From: Herpetosiphonaceae bacterium
Lineage (GTDB): Bacteria; Chloroflexota; Chloroflexia; Chloroflexales; Kallotenuaceae
Reading direction: 5' to 3'
Length of the DNA: 59,555 nt
Assembly (NCBI GenBank): GCA_013821605.1
Contig: JACDGP010000017.1
Coordinates: forward strand, 1-59,555
Under the pieces are notes generated by a model. That model was not told the DNA's origin and ran no database searches. It worked only from the letters and a program-made list of their open reading frames with translations. Positions 45,598 through 53,247 of the stretch are shown here, in pieces. Within the stretch, counting starts at the first letter, position 1, and every line of letters starts with the position of its first letter. The position numbers and the translations under genes are program-made.

Positions 45598-45885
45598 ATG
45601 ACGATCCAGACCTCCTATACCGATGTCCGTGCGCGGCTTGCGTCGCTGCTTGACGAGGTAACTGAGAACAACGAGGTCATCATCATCCAACGACGTGGGG
45701 CGGAAGACGTAGCCCTCATTTCAGCTGCAGAGTTGTACAGTCTTCAAGAGACTGCTCACCTGCTTCGCTCACCAGGCAACGCCGAACGGCTCCTGCGAGC
45801 ACTGGCGCGTGCCGAAGCCGGGGAGGGCATGCCGGAGACAACTGAGGAGTTGCGACGCGAGGTCGGACTTGCCGAAGAAGCGTAA
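45598..45885 (+). CDS. yefM: YefM-type (Phd family) antitoxin
   Basis: A 95-residue antitoxin with GGAAG upstream of the ATG. It opens MTIQTSYTDVRARLASLLDEV and continues VIIIQRRGAEDVALISAAEL, the Phd/YefM DNA-binding domain. The C-terminal part is acidic and would wrap the toxin. It neutralises YoeB and represses its own operon through the TGTACA sites upstream. The toxin frame starts 17 bases before its stop. Confidence 0.9.
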   Translation: MTIQTSYTDVRARLASLLDEVTENNEVIIIQRRGAEDVALISAAELYSLQETAHLLRSPGNAERLLRALARAEAGEGMPETTEELRREVGLAEEA

Positions 45886-46192
45886 GACTGCGGGGAGCGG
45901 GAACGAGACCACGCAACGCCTGGAGCGTCCTCCAGCCCGAGAAGCGGTCTTCCATCCCGAGTTTCGTGAGGACTTACATTGGTGGGTCGCGACTGAGCAC
46001 AATATTGCCCTCCGTGTACTGTCGCTTGTTGAAGCGGTGTTGCGGGAGCCGTTTACCGGTATTGGCAAGCCCGAGCCATTAAAATACGTCGGAGCCGGCG
46101 TGTGGTCGCGTCGCATTACGCAGGAGCATCGTCTGGTCTACCGTGTGAGTGAGGCGCGCATCGATTTCCTACAGGCCCGTTACCACTATTAA
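45869..46192 (+). CDS. yoeB: YoeB/Txe-type ribosome-dependent mRNA interferase toxin
   Basis: A 107-residue frame starting at TTG 45869, overlapping yefM by 17 bases; the exact start is uncertain because the first 22 residues are not family-like. From about residue 28 it follows YoeB: FHPEFREDLHWWVAT, VEAVLREPFTGIGKPEPLK, WSRRITQEHRLVYRV and DFLQARYHY. The glutamate, arginine, histidine and C-terminal tyrosine of the YoeB active site are present. It would cut mRNA on the ribosome. Confidence 0.88.
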   Translation: MPKKRKTAGSGNETTQRLERPPAREAVFHPEFREDLHWWVATEHNIALRVLSLVEAVLREPFTGIGKPEPLKYVGAGVWSRRITQEHRLVYRVSEARIDFLQARYHY

Positions 46193-46288: not shown

Positions 46289-46330
46289 CCCCTCTCCCGC
46301 ACGCTGGGAGAGGGGCTAGGGGTGAGGGCC
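46289..46330. repeat. Intergenic hairpin repeat element
   Basis: CCCCTCTCCC at 46289-46298 pairs exactly with GGGAGAGGGG at 46306-46315 over a 7-nt loop, followed by CTAGGGGTGAGGGCC. From general experience, elements of the type GGGAGAGGGGCTAGGGGTGA are dispersed between genes in many Chloroflexota and other genomes. The copy number here is one. It may work as a weak terminator after yoeB. Confidence 0.45.
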
Positions 46331-46438
46331 TCCGCTCGAGGAAAAACCGCTATTTCCCGAAAGATCAATAGAATCAATAGGCATTATCGCTCGGCATCGC
46401 ATGACCCACTTAATACGTCCTTGCGTTGTGAGAAGCTC

Positions 46439-46650
46439 ATGAAAGTGCAGGCTAGACAACAACGCGCGGAGCGGATCGAAATACCCGAACTCCAAGCACG
46501 GAGCATTCTGACCGAAACGCGCGGCTTCACCGGTGTGACCGTGCCGGGCACCGGTTTTCACTATAGCCTGAATCCCTACCGTGGCTGCGCCTTCAACTGC
46601 AGCTACTGCTACGCGCCCGCCTTCGTCTTCGATGAAAATGCACGCGCGAA
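46439..46650 (+). pseudogene. Truncated radical SAM protein (spore-lyase-like family)
   Basis: The frame from the ATG at 46439 gives ELQARSILTETRGFTG and FHYSLNPYRGCAFNCSYCYAP, with the CxxxCxxC [4Fe-4S] motif of the SplB/Rv2578c-like radical SAM family. After FDENARANWV the similarity stops and the frame ends within about 35 codons (ORF end 46762). A whole protein of this family has about 300 residues, so about 70 percent is missing. The phosphotransferase gene begins at 46708, indicating a deletion junction near 46650. Confidence 0.7.
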
Positions 46651-46707
46651 CTGGGTGTTGATGAGCCGCTGCTTGCCCAGACCTCATTGCTGTAGGAGTA
46701 GGTTGCC

Positions 46708-47655
46708 TTGGTTCAATCAGACTCGGCTAGAGTCAACCCGCGTACCATTCTATCTGCTCTAGGCCTGTCGGCGTCGCGCATCCAACTCATCCCGATCCGC
46801 CATAACGTGCATTGGCTTGTGGATCTGCCGGGTGAGCGAGTTGTACTTCGCCGCTACACCTCCGACCATTCGCGAGCAAGTGTTGCATATGAATTACGCC
46901 TGCTTGAGCACCTTGACCGGCGTGGCTGGCCTGTGCCCACCCCCGTCACTCCCGTAACCGAAGCGGCGGGCTCGATCTGGTGTGTTTTTCGTTATATGGC
47001 AGGTCGCGCGCCCATACCACGTTCGGTTGCGGGTGTTCGTGCTGAGCAGCGTCGCCGTGGTCGCCTCCTAGCACAACTGCATATGGACATGGTGGATGTT
47101 GCCGAAATGGGGCAACGCGAAGGCTGGCTGCGAGCAGACGAGGGCTTGTTGGATCGAACAAGCCAGTTGCCGGTGGATGAGCTTCTTGCTGCCTACGAAC
47201 GCAAAGCTCCTGAGAACGGGCGCATCTTGCGCGTCTATGCTGATCGCATGCGCGAACGACTGGGCGAATTGTTACCCCACGCACCCGCACCGCTCGTGAT
47301 TCACGGCGATTTCACACCATGGAACATCAAATATAAGCATGGTGCCCTCTCGGCTATCCTCGATTTCGAAATGGCCCACCTCGATCTGCGCGTAGCAGAC
47401 TTCGCGCTCTCATGGCGTGGCCAATACGATGATGTCGTGCGCGGCTACGAAGAGGTGTCGCCGCTGGATCCCGTTGAGCAGGAGTTGCTTGTCCCGATCT
47501 ACTGGGCCTGGGTTATCGCGTCTGCGGTTGCCGAGCTCGATGCGGGTGAAGCGGTCAGCGACTGGGCGGTAACGCACTTGCTCCGCACCCCTTCCAATTT
47601 GCCCACCTCCCTCCCTGGATCTATAATTCCCCTGCCATCACATGGAGCACACTGA
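46708..47655 (+). CDS. Aminoglycoside-phosphotransferase-fold kinase
   Basis: A 315-residue protein of the APH/homoserine kinase-like fold, starting at a TTG at 46708 with an AGGAG ten bases upstream. ATP-binding HNVHWLVDLPGERVVLRRYT is followed by the catalytic loop VIHGDFTPWNIKYK and the metal aspartate in AILDFEMAHLDLRVADFA. Substrate unknown; homoserine, choline, aminoglycoside or other alcohols are possible. Its 3' end contains a good promoter for the next operon. Confidence 0.8.
   Translation: MVQSDSARVNPRTILSALGLSASRIQLIPIRHNVHWLVDLPGERVVLRRYTSDHSRASVAYELRLLEHLDRRGWPVPTPVTPVTEAAGSIWCVFRYMAGRAPIPRSVAGVRAEQRRRGRLLAQLHMDMVDVAEMGQREGWLRADEGLLDRTSQLPVDELLAAYERKAPENGRILRVYADRMRERLGELLPHAPAPLVIHGDFTPWNIKYKHGALSAILDFEMAHLDLRVADFALSWRGQYDDVVRGYEEVSPLDPVEQELLVPIYWAWVIASAVAELDAGEAVSDWAVTHLLRTPSNLPTSLPGSIIPLPSHGAH
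47599..47627 (+). promoter_or_regulatory. Sigma70-like promoter for the ech-etfBA operon
   Basis: TTGCCC at 47599-47604 and a perfect TATAAT at 47622-47627 are 17 bases apart, within the end of the phosphotransferase coding region. Transcription would begin near 47634, leaving a leader of about 110 nt before the ATG at 47745. Confidence 0.6.
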
Positions 47656-47744: not shown

Positions 47745-48530
47745 ATGACCTTTACGAATATCGAAGTAACGCATGCAGCAGGCGTCAGCACCATCACGCT
47801 GAACCGTCCGAAACAGCTCAATGCTTTGGACGCTGCGACCATTAGCGAATTAAGCACCGCCTTAACCGGTATCAGCAGTGATACCGGCGTGCGAGCCATT
47901 ATCTTGACCGGCAGCGGCGAGCGCGCCTTTGCCGCTGGAGCCGATATCGGCGAGCTACGCGAGTTGCAATCCGCAACGGCGGCACGTGAGATGGCGCTGC
48001 GCTCGCAAGGTTTAGGCCGCTTGATGAGCGAGCTCCACCAGCCCATCATCGCCGCTATCAACGGTTATGCCTTGGGCGGTGGCTTGGAGCTTGCCCTGGC
48101 CTGTGATATACGGATTGCTGCTGATACAGCTCAGCTCGGCTTGCCGGAGGTAACCCTGGGCATTCTGCCTGGTTGGGGTGGTACGCAGCGCCTAGCTCGT
48201 CTGATTGGCCCCGGCATGGCCAAGCTTATGATGATGACCGGCGAGCGCATCAAGGCCAACGAAGCCCTACGTCTCGGCCTCGTCGAGCGCGTTGTACCTG
48301 CCGCCGAGCTAGCGCAGGCTGCCCAGCAACTCGCCCAGCAGATCGCGGCGCTGCCGCCCTTGAGCATTGCGGCGATCAAGCAGGCCGTCAATCAGGGCTT
48401 GAATATGAGTCTTGATCAAGGCAATGCCTTTGAAGCCGGCCTGTTCGGTGAGCTGGCGATGACGGCCGATGCCAAAGAAGGCACCACCGCCTTTCTCGAC
48501 AAACGAGCGGCGGTCTGGCAAGGTAAGTAA
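47745..48530 (+). CDS. Enoyl-CoA hydratase
   Basis: A 261-residue crotonase-fold enzyme; GGAG precedes the ATG at 47745. It hydrates trans-2-enoyl-CoA to 3-hydroxyacyl-CoA. The oxyanion-hole segment AFAAGADIGEL and the active-site glutamates in NGYALGGGLELALACDIR and LGLPEVTLGILPGWGGTQR are complete. It heads an operon with etfB and etfA, which suits fatty-acid or short-acyl-CoA oxidation. Crotonyl-CoA from the phaAB products may be a substrate, though this is inference. Confidence 0.92.
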   Translation: MTFTNIEVTHAAGVSTITLNRPKQLNALDAATISELSTALTGISSDTGVRAIILTGSGERAFAAGADIGELRELQSATAAREMALRSQGLGRLMSELHQPIIAAINGYALGGGLELALACDIRIAADTAQLGLPEVTLGILPGWGGTQRLARLIGPGMAKLMMMTGERIKANEALRLGLVERVVPAAELAQAAQQLAQQIAALPPLSIAAIKQAVNQGLNMSLDQGNAFEAGLFGELAMTADAKEGTTAFLDKRAAVWQGK

Positions 48531-48556
48531 AGCAATCATCTAAGGAAGGACTCAGG

Positions 48557-49339
48557 ATGCACACTCTGGTATTTATCAAACAGGTCCCCCAACAAAATAG
48601 TGTCAAGATTACCCCGGATAAGCATATCGATGCCTCGGGTATCGAGTCGATCATCAGCTTGTTCGATGAATATGCCCTGGAAGAAGCCTTGCTACAAACC
48701 GAAAAAGCGGGCGGCCAAGTGACCGTGATCACCATCGGCACCGAAGCCGACAAAGAAGCCTTGCGTAAAGCGCTGGCGATGGGCGTCGATAACGCCATCC
48801 TGGTCAGCGATCCGCAGTTTGCCGACATCGGCTCCCTGGCTGCGGCAAAAATTGGCGCCGCTGCCGCCCGCAAAGTCGGTGACTTCGACATCATCTTCTG
48901 CGGCAAGCAATCGACCGACGACGAAACGGCCACCTTCGGCCCGGCCCTAGCCCGCTACCTTGACATCCCGGTGTTGAGCTATGTCTTTAAGGTCGAGTCC
49001 GTCGATCCCAATACTCACACCGTCGTCCTTGAGCGCGCTCTGGAGTCGACCATCGAAACCGTTGAGTCCACGCTACCTGCCGTGCTGACCACGGTTAAGG
49101 ACCTAAACCAGCCGCGCTATCCATCGCTGCTGAAGATTCGCAAGGCTGCCAAGGCCACCATCCCCACCTGGGGTGCTGCCGATCTTGGCATTGAAGCGGG
49201 GAGCCTTACTCCGAAGATCGAGTATTTGGACCGTGTACCACCACCACCACGACCGGTTGGCTCGATTGTAGACGGCGCTTCGGCGCAGGATAAAGCTGCG
49301 AAGCTGGTAGACAAACTGGTCGACGCACAAGTCATCTAA
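48557..49339 (+). CDS. etfB: Electron transfer flavoprotein beta subunit
   Basis: A 260-residue ETF beta subunit, which with EtfA carries electrons from acyl-CoA dehydrogenases to the membrane quinone pool. MHTLVFIKQVPQ, VKITPDKHIDASGIES, and the nucleotide-binding loop ALAMGVDNAILV are typical. Later GKQSTDDETATFGPALARYL and the C-terminal TVKDLNQPRYPSLLKI-type signature appear. Start at 48557 has AAGGAAGG upstream. It is 26 bases after the hydratase. Confidence 0.93.
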   Translation: MHTLVFIKQVPQQNSVKITPDKHIDASGIESIISLFDEYALEEALLQTEKAGGQVTVITIGTEADKEALRKALAMGVDNAILVSDPQFADIGSLAAAKIGAAAARKVGDFDIIFCGKQSTDDETATFGPALARYLDIPVLSYVFKVESVDPNTHTVVLERALESTIETVESTLPAVLTTVKDLNQPRYPSLLKIRKAAKATIPTWGAADLGIEAGSLTPKIEYLDRVPPPPRPVGSIVDGASAQDKAAKLVDKLVDAQVI

Positions 49340-49393: not shown

Positions 49394-50368
49394 ATGGCAG
49401 AGATATGGGTCTATCTTGAGGAGGGAGCAGACGACCTGGCTCCCATCAGTCGCGAATTGATTACGAAAGCGATGGAGTTGGCCGCTGGTCTGGGCGGCTC
49501 CGTCGCGGGCCTAGCCCTCGGTCCCAGTGCTGCGACTATCACTGCACAAGCCTTTAACTATGGTGTGCCGAAGGTCTATCTGACCGAAGCTCCGGCCTTG
49601 GAGCACTATACCAACGAAGCCTATGTAGCAGCCGCTGCTGAATTAATCAAGCAGTACCGGCCTTCCGTTGTCTTAGCCGGCACGTCGATTCAAATGCGTG
49701 ATTGGACACCATCACTGGCCGCCGCCCTCGACGCCGCCCTTGCCGCAGATGTCACCCACGTTGCGGTTGAAGGTGGGCGGCTGGTCGCCACGCGCCCCTC
49801 GCATGGTGCCAATGTGATCAACAAACTCGGCTTCAACGCCCCGCTCGTCATCATATCCCTGCGCCGCCAAGTATCGCCCGAAGCCAAGCCCACCGGCGGC
49901 ACCGGCGAGACGATTCGTGGCACGATGCCTGCGATCAAGCAGCGCACCAGGGTCCGCAGCGTCAAGGAAAAAACCAACGCTGTGAACCTGGCCGACGCCC
50001 AGATCATTGTCTCAGGTGGTCGCGGTCTCCAATCGCCCGAAAACTACCAGAAGCTGGTGCCCGAGCTGGCGCAGGCCTTCGGTGGCGCCTATGGTGCCTC
50101 GCGTGCAATTGTCGATGCCGGCTGGGTCCCCTACGAGCGTCAGGTCGGCCAAACCGGCAAGACGGTCTCCCCCAAGCTCTATGTGGCCTGCGGGATTTCC
50201 GGTGCCATTCAGCATCTCGCCGGTATGCGTAGTTCCGGCACAATCGTAGCGATCAACCGCGACCCAGAAGCCCCGATCTTTAAAGTTGCAACCTACGGTC
50301 TGGTTGGTGACGTGAACGAGCTCCTGCCGGCCTTGACGGAAGCCGTGAAGACGAAAGTCGGCCAATAA
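49394..50368 (+). CDS. etfA: Electron transfer flavoprotein alpha subunit
   Basis: A 324-residue ETF alpha subunit holding the FAD. The N-terminal domain starts AEIWVYLEEGADDL. The FAD-binding C-terminal half has VSGGRGLQSPENYQKL, GASRAIVDAGWVPYERQVGQTGKTV, KLYVACGISGAIQHLAGM and AINRDPEAPIFKVATYGLVGD. It follows etfB by 54 bases and is probably in the same transcript, with the DinB-family gene 24 bases later. Confidence 0.94.
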   Translation: MAEIWVYLEEGADDLAPISRELITKAMELAAGLGGSVAGLALGPSAATITAQAFNYGVPKVYLTEAPALEHYTNEAYVAAAAELIKQYRPSVVLAGTSIQMRDWTPSLAAALDAALAADVTHVAVEGGRLVATRPSHGANVINKLGFNAPLVIISLRRQVSPEAKPTGGTGETIRGTMPAIKQRTRVRSVKEKTNAVNLADAQIIVSGGRGLQSPENYQKLVPELAQAFGGAYGASRAIVDAGWVPYERQVGQTGKTVSPKLYVACGISGAIQHLAGMRSSGTIVAINRDPEAPIFKVATYGLVGDVNELLPALTEAVKTKVGQ

Positions 50369-50392: not shown

Positions 50393-50875
50393 ATGGAATC
50401 AGAGATCACAACCTACACTCGGTTGCTCGACCGGATGCGCGAGGACGTGCGCGAGGTGTTACTTGGCTTGTACGGCGCGGGGTTGAACTGGCGACCTCTG
50501 CCGACCGACACGAACTCGGTCTACGCTCTCGCGCAACACTCCGCCTGGGTCGAAGACTGGTGGATCGGATCAGTCGCGGCGCGCGCCCCTTTTCCACATA
50601 ATTGGGACAACGACGAGGATCTCGCAAGCAGCGGCGACGACCCCGCCGATCTCCTCGTCTTCCTAGACCAAGCCGCCGTTCGCACCGCTGCCTTTTTTGC
50701 CACGCTCGACCCGGATGAACTGGGCGCACGCCGCGAACGTATCCGGCGTGATGGCAGCGTCGATACCCGAAGTGTGCGCTATTGCATCGTGCATACCATC
50801 GAGCACTATAGCGAACATATTGGTCAGATGCGCCTAACCCGTCAGCTATGGGAAGCCGGTCAAAACAAGCCATGA
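50393..50875 (+). CDS. DinB-family protein
   Basis: A 160-residue four-helix bundle. A metal site is suggested by H in LAQHSAWVEDWWIG and by HTIEHYSEHIGQMRLTRQLWE, the usual DinB HxxxHxxH-like pattern. DinB proteins are thiol-dependent transferases or hydrolases and often uncharacterised. Its stop overlaps the start of the E2-like gene by four bases (ATGA), so the two are translationally coupled. Confidence 0.82.
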   Translation: MESEITTYTRLLDRMREDVREVLLGLYGAGLNWRPLPTDTNSVYALAQHSAWVEDWWIGSVAARAPFPHNWDNDEDLASSGDDPADLLVFLDQAAVRTAAFFATLDPDELGARRERIRRDGSVDTRSVRYCIVHTIEHYSEHIGQMRLTRQLWEAGQNKP

Positions 50876-51939
50876 CACTGCGCCAACTCCGGCTGCCGTC
50901 GCTTCCCGGTGACGGCACCGTGACGCTTGAGCACTGGTATAAACAGCCCGGCGAGCCAGTCACGCCGGGCGATCCCCTGCTCCTTGTCCGTACCGAGCAC
51001 TTTGCGCTCGATCTACCGGCGCCCATCGCTGGCACCCTAGCTCAACACTGCTATGATGCTGGCGAAACAATCCCGGTGGGCACGACCTTCGCCACCCTTG
51101 ATCAGGAGGACAGCTCGCTCACTGAGCCTCCAGCACCCCTCGCGTCGCATCCAACGCCACGGCCAGTCCGCGTTTCGCCCCTTGCCCGTAAGCTAGCCAC
51201 GGTCCACGCCTATGATCTCACGACGATCACCGGCAGCGGCTACGGCGGTCGCATCGTCCAAGCCGATATCGTGCGCCTGCAAGCCTCCCTTATCCCTCAG
51301 TCCGCATGCCCAGAGGGCGCCCCGACCCCCGCCCTCAGTCCTCGTCCCCTCAGTCCTCAGTCCTCATCCCTCGCCCCTACCGTCTTGACTGCCATGCAGG
51401 TGCAATTGGATGCGGCTTTAACAGTGGGGCACCGAGCGCGCCAAGGGCCGCGTGGTGTGGAGCTAACGCTTGCAAGCTGCGTAGCCCATGCCGTGAGTCA
51501 GGAACTACTTACCCACCATTTGCTCCAGGCTGTCTGGGACGACGACGGACTAATCCTGCCACGACAGACAACGTTGGCAATCGAGGATGGCAGCGTCAGT
51601 CGCGTTATCCCCGATGCCGCCGCACTCAGCTTACTGGGGATCGCGCGGAGCCTAGCGAGCTCATCGGCGGCTGCGGATATCACCCGCGCATTTAGTATCC
51701 GGACGACTTCGGCCCACTGGACCGAAGCGTGGCTTGCTCCCGGCTCGACCGCGACCTTAACTATCGGTTCGCCCACCGTCCGGCCCATCGTCGTAGCGAC
51801 ACTGGAGGGTGATCGCATTGAGCCGCACCCCACTGCGCTGCTAACCCTCTGCTACGATGCCCGCATCCTCACACAGCCGGAGGCCGATGCCTTCTTGTGG
51901 GCTGTGAAGCGACGCGTTGAATGTTTGCACGGAGCTTAA
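50872..51939 (+). CDS. Degenerate 2-oxoacid dehydrogenase E2-like protein (pseudo-E2)
   Basis: A 355-residue protein with the three-part E2 layout. Residues 1-80 form a lipoyl-like domain, residues about 98-132 a peripheral-subunit-binding domain (VRVSPLARKLATVHA), and residues 165-355 a catalytic-like domain. In the lipoyl domain the ETDK loop reads RTEHF, so the lysine that carries lipoate is H43. In the catalytic domain the DHRxxDG motif reads DARILTQ, so the catalytic histidine is A330 and the glycine is lost. The binding domain looks intact. The protein probably cannot be lipoylated or transfer acyl groups. It may scaffold or regulate. The linker contains a low-complexity S/P/T segment coded by a tandem DNA repeat. 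Confidence 0.75.
   Translation: MTLRQLRLPSLPGDGTVTLEHWYKQPGEPVTPGDPLLLVRTEHFALDLPAPIAGTLAQHCYDAGETIPVGTTFATLDQEDSSLTEPPAPLASHPTPRPVRVSPLARKLATVHAYDLTTITGSGYGGRIVQADIVRLQASLIPQSACPEGAPTPALSPRPLSPQSSSLAPTVLTAMQVQLDAALTVGHRARQGPRGVELTLASCVAHAVSQELLTHHLLQAVWDDDGLILPRQTTLAIEDGSVSRVIPDAAALSLLGIARSLASSSAAADITRAFSIRTTSAHWTEAWLAPGSTATLTIGSPTVRPIVVATLEGDRIEPHPTALLTLCYDARILTQPEADAFLWAVKRRVECLHGA
51332..51377. repeat. CCTCAGTCCT-type repeat inside the pseudo-E2 linker
   Basis: Short units such as CCCTCAGTCCTC recur here three to four times. A related stretch, with a similar GCCCAGAGG lead-in, lies at 53704-53735. The unit is in frame with the E2-like gene and codes for the linker. Confidence 0.5.
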
Positions 51940-51978: not shown

Positions 51979-52006
51979 ATGAAGGTCCGCAGGGCGGGCC
52001 TTTCAT
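51979..52006 (+). other. Leader hairpin before pfkA
   Basis: ATGAAGGTCCGC at 51979-51990 can pair with 51994-52006 across a three-base loop, with one bulged T and one U-G pair. It precedes the Shine-Dalgarno GGAAGGAG. It may stabilise the transcript or control its translation. Confidence 0.4.
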
Positions 52007-52041
52007 GTTCTACCAGTAGCGCGTCCGGAAGGAGATCGGCT

Positions 52042-53247
52042 ATGCCGACAACGATTCGACGAATTGGTGTTCTGACCGGCGGTGGTGATGCACCCGGCCT
52101 GAATGCAGTGATTCGTGCCGTCGTTAAAACCGCCGAAATCGAATATGGCTGGAAAGTCGTAGGCATCGAAGACGGCTTTGAGGGCTTATTAACTCCACCA
52201 CGTATACGCAACCTTGGCTTGGAGCAGGTCCGGGGCCTGCTCCCAAGTGGTGGTACCTTGCTTGGCTCAACGAATAAAGGTCACTTCGGTTCGAAAATTA
52301 TCGACGGTCAGCACCACCGCGAGCCTGGACCCTTCAAAGAAGCGGCGCAAAATATGCGGCGGCTGGGGCTTGACGCTCTGGTCGTGATCGGCGGCGAGGG
52401 CTCCCAGGGTATTGCCAGTGAGTTTGCCAAGTATGGTATGCGAGCCGTAGGCGTCCCGAAAACGATCGATAACGATCTGTGGGGTAGTGATCGGACCTTT
52501 GGTTTCGACACAGCATTAATGGTTGCGACCGAGGCGATCGACCGTTTGCATACAACTGCCGCCAGCCATGACCGGGTCATGGTCCTGGAAGTCATGGGAC
52601 GCGATGCTGGCTGGATCGCGTTGCACGCCGGTATCGGCGGTGGTGCTGACGTCGTTCTGATCCCCGAAATCCCCTTCCGTATTGAGGCTGTCGCCTCGAA
52701 AGTCCTGGCCCGCGAATACCAAGGCTCCAAGTTCTCGATCATCGTCGTCGCCGAAGGAGCACGCTTGCTTGCCGGTGATCAAATGTTTGTTGACGATAGC
52801 GGGCGTCTCGGTGGCATTGGTCACTATGTGGCAGCCGAGGTCGCCAAGCGTACCAAAAAAGACGCACGTGTTGTCGTCCTGGGTCACCTGCAACGGGGTG
52901 GTGCTCCCACGCCCTATGATCGCGTTTTAGCCACACGCTTTGGTTGTGCTGCGGTTCGCTCGTTGGCCGAAGGCAAGTCCGGCGAAATCGTCGTTCTCAA
53001 AGGCGGTGAAATCCAGACGATTACGATGGCGGAAGCCGCCTCACGGATCAAGACGGTGCCGACCGACGACGAGCAAATCCGCGTGGCACGCGGCCTCGGC
53101 ATTGCTTTTGGCGACGAGAATGCCGATCTCTTCGAGGAAGAGGAAGAAGCGGTCATCGAACATATCGAAGCCGAACGCCCAATTTCGCATGGCGTTGACG
53201 ATGAGGAAGAAACACCGCTTCATCATAGCAATCTCGAAGGTGTCTAA
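52042..53247 (+). CDS. pfkA: 6-phosphofructokinase
   Basis: A 401-residue phosphofructokinase. GGAAGGAG precedes the ATG at 52042. The glycine-rich opening GVLTGGGDAPGLNAVIR is followed by VIGGEGSQG and PKTIDNDLWGSDRTFGFDTA. A Gly at the position that is Asp in PPi-dependent enzymes argues for ATP, while Lys before TIDND is the combination known from group III ATP enzymes of actinobacteria. MGRDAGWIALHAGI and PEIPFRIE complete the fructose-6-phosphate site. The C-terminal 45 residues are acidic. It catalyses the committed step of glycolysis. Confidence 0.92.
   Translation: MPTTIRRIGVLTGGGDAPGLNAVIRAVVKTAEIEYGWKVVGIEDGFEGLLTPPRIRNLGLEQVRGLLPSGGTLLGSTNKGHFGSKIIDGQHHREPGPFKEAAQNMRRLGLDALVVIGGEGSQGIASEFAKYGMRAVGVPKTIDNDLWGSDRTFGFDTALMVATEAIDRLHTTAASHDRVMVLEVMGRDAGWIALHAGIGGGADVVLIPEIPFRIEAVASKVLAREYQGSKFSIIVVAEGARLLAGDQMFVDDSGRLGGIGHYVAAEVAKRTKKDARVVVLGHLQRGGAPTPYDRVLATRFGCAAVRSLAEGKSGEIVVLKGGEIQTITMAEAASRIKTVPTDDEQIRVARGLGIAFGDENADLFEEEEEAVIEHIEAERPISHGVDDEEETPLHHSNLEGV

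Follow-up and report, generated by a model that had tools for sequence, protein, structure and literature searches.

What purpose could an E2-like protein of the 2-oxoacid dehydrogenase family serve once it has lost both its lipoyl lysine and its catalytic histidine? The question is raised by a gene at 50872..51939 (+ strand) of the window, the whole 59,555-nucleotide (59.6 kb) stretch of DNA analysed here. This open in-frame ORF encodes 355 amino acids, and the reading frame runs without a stop from another ATG further upstream, at 50848, a possible alternative start that would give 363 amino acids. We refer to the product as pE2 (pseudo-E2). Three Pfam domains, all with matches exceeding the curated cut-offs, bear out the lipoyl, subunit-binding and acyltransferase layout that the earlier note had proposed for it. 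These are, all on the + strand, a lipoyl-like domain (aa 4-78, 50881..51105; PF00364, Biotin_lipoyl match aa 14-76, 6.8e-6, together with the site column and AlphaFold2 strands E3-7 to E72-77), a peripheral subunit-binding domain (PSBD; aa 98-137, 51163..51282; PF02817, E3_binding match aa 99-133, 2.3e-10) and an acyltransferase-like domain (aa 166-351, 51367..51924; 2-oxoacid_dh match aa 164-350, 5.7e-8, profile positions 23-225 of 232).

Both active residues are indeed replaced, as had been claimed. The lipoyl loop reads RTEH in place of ETDK, which puts His43 (50998-51000, + strand, from the site column) where the lipoylation Lys should be. The catalytic motif reads DARILTQ in place of DHRxxDG, and in the alignment the catalytic His site falls in Tyr328-Asp329-Ala330-Arg331 (51853-51864, + strand), with Ala330 for His. 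The acyltransferase-like domain also lacks the N-terminal RRxIAxxM arm and the (T/S)NxG loop. Judged from its sequence, pE2 is thus without the lipoylated Lys, the catalytic His and the strand-exchange arm of a functional E2, and both a lipoyl group and acyl transfer are beyond its chemistry. The domain order and fold of an E2 are kept nonetheless, as seen in the Pfam, AlphaFold2 and PDB fold matches. With AlphaFold2, pE2 of the window (pLDDT 84) and L042, a relative without a lipoyl domain (pLDDT 83), both gave confident predictions of an E2-like fold; E2 cores in the PDB match both predictions, and the L042 fold also matches human E3BP (6h60, TM 0.72). The whole 59.6 kb window holds no homologue of E1 or E3, in line with the reported absence of such genes close by, and no Rfam match. 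The genome from which the window comes (5.88 Mb) encodes three further E2s (L052, L053 and L054) with Lys and His intact; they lie on other contigs, each adjoining E1 genes, and L054 adjoins an E3 gene as well.

To place pE2, homologues were gathered by a relatives search, alignment and a profile search of 82 Chloroflexales genomes, with site states read from re-fetched loci. The resulting 87 E2-family rows comprised 50 with both Lys and His, 31 with neither, five without the lipoyl Lys column and without His, and one fragment with His. Doubly dead E2-like proteins therefore number 36, in 36/82 genomes. The lipoyl Lys was present in 0/31 members scored at that site, the other five having no such column, and the catalytic His site was A, T, S, V or G in 36/36; both residues were present in 50/50 intact E2s scored at both sites. 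The same double loss, which the earlier note had suggested seeking in related genomes, was therefore found in every member of the clade, and homologues within it with intact Lys and His were looked for and amount to 0/36. All 36 dead rows group together (support 100/99, in 100% of bootstrap trees) in a tree of bacterial sequences whose root relative to the live E2s is provisional and in which several dead rows are long branches. As these rows mostly track the four families f1 to f4, the simplest account has one inactivation close to the base of the Chloroflexales and losses later on. The gene is absent from a Roseiflexus-type genus (g7) and from other lineages, where absence from incomplete genomes may reflect assembly; the names Chloroflexus, Herpetosiphon and Roseiflexus are those to which we take the relatives' genomes to belong. 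No further member of the clade turned up in 158 genomes of the class and 350 of the phylum, searches that more divergent members could escape (an alignment subset, A2, served for the collection scan), and the hits fetched from outside the order, among them the top two from the phylum, all proved to be intact E2s. In the literature we found no description of this clade or of such a bacterial family, and the main text of one C. aurantiacus proteome paper makes no mention of it.

The losses extend beyond the two active residues. In live E2s the second catalytic loop reads FTITNxG and comes after the stretch RARxxxLxPDExQGG; dead-clade members have both either replaced or deleted. The RRxIAxxM arm helix ahead of the catalytic domain, of a type present in live E2s, has disappeared or decayed in nearly all of them, with a recognisable remnant in L036. 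Given the state of this arm, it is doubtful that pE2 forms an ordinary E2-like trimer; the PSBD, whose presence was likewise to be checked, was recovered by Pfam. The clade also has features of its own, namely an invariant Y-D-[A/T/S/V/G]-R, in which Tyr, Asp and Arg are each found in 36/36, and a conserved Trp. In genus g12 the lipoyl domain is gone and the PSBD kept in 4/4 members found (L042, L046, L097 and L108); for L042 and L046, no lipoyl domain was present in three forward frames read back into recG.

What remains is under constraint. The dN/dS of pE2 genes was 0.11-0.35 in Chloroflexus, 0.08-0.18 in Herpetosiphon and 0.33-0.40 in genus g16 (NG86, with many dS values near saturation), several times the 0.03-0.04 of two intact E2 pairs but still a sign of purifying selection. 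Taken domain by domain, the ratios of the PSBD and of the catalytic-like domain (0.10-0.36) were similarly low and the linkers tended to be relaxed. Mean identity within the dead clade was 0.51 for the PSBD, 0.40 for the lipoyl and 0.37 for the catalytic domain, whereas live E2s of the same order ranked in reverse (0.61, 0.69 and 0.69, respectively). Since the PSBD ranks top in the dead clade and bottom in live E2s, the comparison points to it as the functionally central part of pE2, with the E2-like domain needed too, and it is probably this partner-binding domain for which pE2 is kept. The claim that the subunit-binding domain is conserved thus holds for the clade at large. In an alignment to the PSBD of B. 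stearothermophilus, Arg106 and Arg127 of pE2 correspond to Arg135 and Arg156 and are kept in 32/36 and 30/36 members, respectively, and the equivalent of Arg139 is mostly lost; we take these three B. stearothermophilus arginines to be E3 contacts, as in the E3-PSBD structure 1EBD. As a separate observation, the PSBDs of L054-type E2s (19 rows, e.g. L054, L120 and L123) all have Ala or Ser at the normally basic Arg135 position, where class-level relatives outside the Chloroflexales (L125-L130, L132-L134) retain Arg. A complementary loss of this Arg in the live E2 only alongside pE2 was considered and found no support, as the Roseiflexus-type genomes, which lack pE2, have Ala there as well.

The reading with most support, to which we give about an even chance, is that pE2 descends from an E2 and works through its PSBD as an adaptor or regulator without catalytic activity. 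A single inactivation of an E2 copy, at the base of the Chloroflexales or close to it, would have left a non-catalytic subunit that was then retained. Its PSBD would bind the shared E3 dimer and/or E1, and its E2-like C-terminal domain would dock on a true E2 or make a separate body. Such a protein may add, space or remove E3/E1 docking sites on 2-oxoacid dehydrogenase complexes, with a presumed effect on their activity, and would act like eukaryotic E3BP/PDHX from an independent bacterial origin. The idea of a dead E2 serving as scaffold or regulator, as first put forward, is supported and gains strength from the double loss in 36/36, the purifying selection and the PSBD as best-conserved domain; a meaningful pairing with a DinB gene was not supported, and the link to etfA is limited to two families (see below). 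Against an adaptor, the loss or degeneration of the strand-exchange arm in almost all members makes co-assembly with E2 uncertain, no E1, E2 or E3 gene was seen next to pE2 at any locus examined, and g7 and other lineages manage without the protein. Purifying selection on the catalytic-like domain as well argues against a role of the PSBD only.

Alternatively, pE2 may stay off the E2 core as a titrating regulator, its PSBD sequestering free E3 or E1 and so reducing flux through one complex or dividing the shared E3 among complexes. The superior conservation of the PSBD, the missing trimer arm and C-terminal anchor, which suggest a non-core state, and the position of the gene away from complex operons would all fit. 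However, a pure titrator needs the PSBD alone, and the C-terminal E2-like domain is both kept and constrained, so we hold this to be a rather unlikely reading, if one with substance.

Could pE2 instead belong to the genes around it? In the window it follows, all on the + strand, etfB (48557..49339) and etfA (49394..50368), both assigned from Pfam and relatives' loci, and a DinB/mycothiol-S-transferase-like gene (50393..50875), and it precedes a phosphofructokinase (PFK) gene (51979..53247). The start of pE2 is coupled to the gene directly upstream through an ATGA overlap at 50872-50875, as had been noted, and the product of that gene matches Mycothiol-S-transferase (4.9e-20) better than DinB_2 in Pfam. 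A conserved DinB-pE2 pair was not borne out: no DinB-like gene lies near any other pE2 locus, and the insertion between etfA and pE2 is private to the window's genome. The neighbouring etfA is real in the window, but as a general link it is limited to f1 and f3. It lies immediately upstream of pE2 in the f1 relatives and at L111, a basal f3 locus, and etfBA adjoins pE2 in only these two of the four families; we therefore rejected etf as the defining context. The region upstream of pE2 is ACAD-etfB-etfA in f1 and L111 and degV-recG in f4, and at Herpetosiphon-type loci an ECF sigma factor and an M23 peptidase flank the gene. The most recurrent neighbour is PFK, which adjoins pE2 on its downstream side in 20/36 loci across three families. 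Among the 82 genomes, 29 have pE2 and a PFK orthologue, seven pE2 only, 15 PFK only and 31 neither, an association that adjacency and shared descent can explain.

Further observations concern the window itself. The f1 relatives carry an ACAD gene between ECH and etfB that the window lacks (48530-48557); a copy with 79% identity is found on a different contig (G000:C190:13990-15225). At 46322-46762, a short ORF with a Cys-rich stretch, GCAFNCSYCYAP, and a radical-SAM-like start ends after 146 amino acids; it has no Pfam match, is overlapped by an APH-type phosphotransferase ORF and is possibly a truncated gene. A YoeB-type toxin of a type II toxin-antitoxin system (Pfam, 1.4e-30) is encoded at 45809-46192.

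The adjacency to PFK, the order ACAD-etfB-etfA-pE2-PFK in f1 and basal f3, and the clade-specific Y-D-x-R and Trp would suit a protein that has left the 2-oxoacid dehydrogenases for a new function, e.g. as scaffold or regulator for PFK or for ETF/acyl-CoA dehydrogenase. We nevertheless consider this improbable, since either gene, pE2 or PFK, occurs in genomes without the other, etf lies apart from pE2 in Chloroflexus and Herpetosiphon, and the PSBD signature is retained. A functionless, degenerating pseudogene would explain the faster evolution relative to intact E2 and the patchy losses over the order, but is very improbable and was discarded, given frames open in 36 genomes, dN/dS well under 1 in three genera and persistence from the base of the order. 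An ordinary E2 with a sequencing error or misalignment at both sites, for which nothing but the E2-like architecture speaks, deserves next to no credence and was ruled out by the same losses in homologues from independent genomes, where further catalytic elements are gone too.

Of the known systems with which pE2, in our preferred reading a non-catalytic adaptor or regulator, can be compared, actinobacterial E2p/OdhA are among its best PDB sequence and fold matches (9y7v, 6zz*). They form no cubic cores, owing to the C-terminal ends of their E2 domains (PMC10415282), but differ from pE2 in keeping the catalytic His and function, and OdhA is an E1-E2 fusion. Closer to home, the L054-type E2 of the Chloroflexales E1-E2-E3 locus shares the domain order of pE2 and a similar C-terminal ADAFLxxxKxxLE ending without the trimer-trimer anchor. 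In contrast to pE2, it has intact TDK, DHR, RRxIAxxM arm and catalytic loop, is under stronger purifying selection and carries Ala or Ser in its PSBD where pE2 has Arg106.

The most telling comparison is with E3BP/PDHX of eukaryotic PDH complexes. In bacterial complexes, one and the same E2 PSBD is considered to recruit both E1 and E3, and E3BP, termed "a eukaryotic gene", is regarded as an invention of eukaryotes (PMC10156792). By the criteria of that work, E3BP resembles pE2 in being E2-derived, with the lipoyl-PSBD-acyltransferase layout, no catalytic His and a retained PSBD, and at sequence level pE2 has the catalytically inactive E2-homologous core domain of an E3BP (PMC10156792). However, pE2 is bacterial, confined to one order and encoded outside any PDH operon; it also lacks the lipoyl Lys, at times the whole lipoyl domain, and its trimer arm is degenerate. 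In testable features pE2 is E3BP-like, yet it is not classed as an E3BP, having no lipoyl Lys and only a putative E3 specificity and common descent. Because the dead clade is restricted to the Chloroflexales, an origin independent of eukaryotic E3BP is suggested. Cultured hosts, Chloroflexus aurantiacus and Herpetosiphon aurantiacus, appear to be available, which makes the purpose of a dead E2 testable in bacteria. Tentatively, and short of an even chance, the Chloroflexales may have evolved their own lipoylation-free E3BP-like subunit from an E2, in which case an E3-recruiting, non-catalytic E2 paralogue would have arisen at least twice; if so, the conserved pseudo-E2 of these bacteria, its PSBD retained, would amount to a second solution reached independently.
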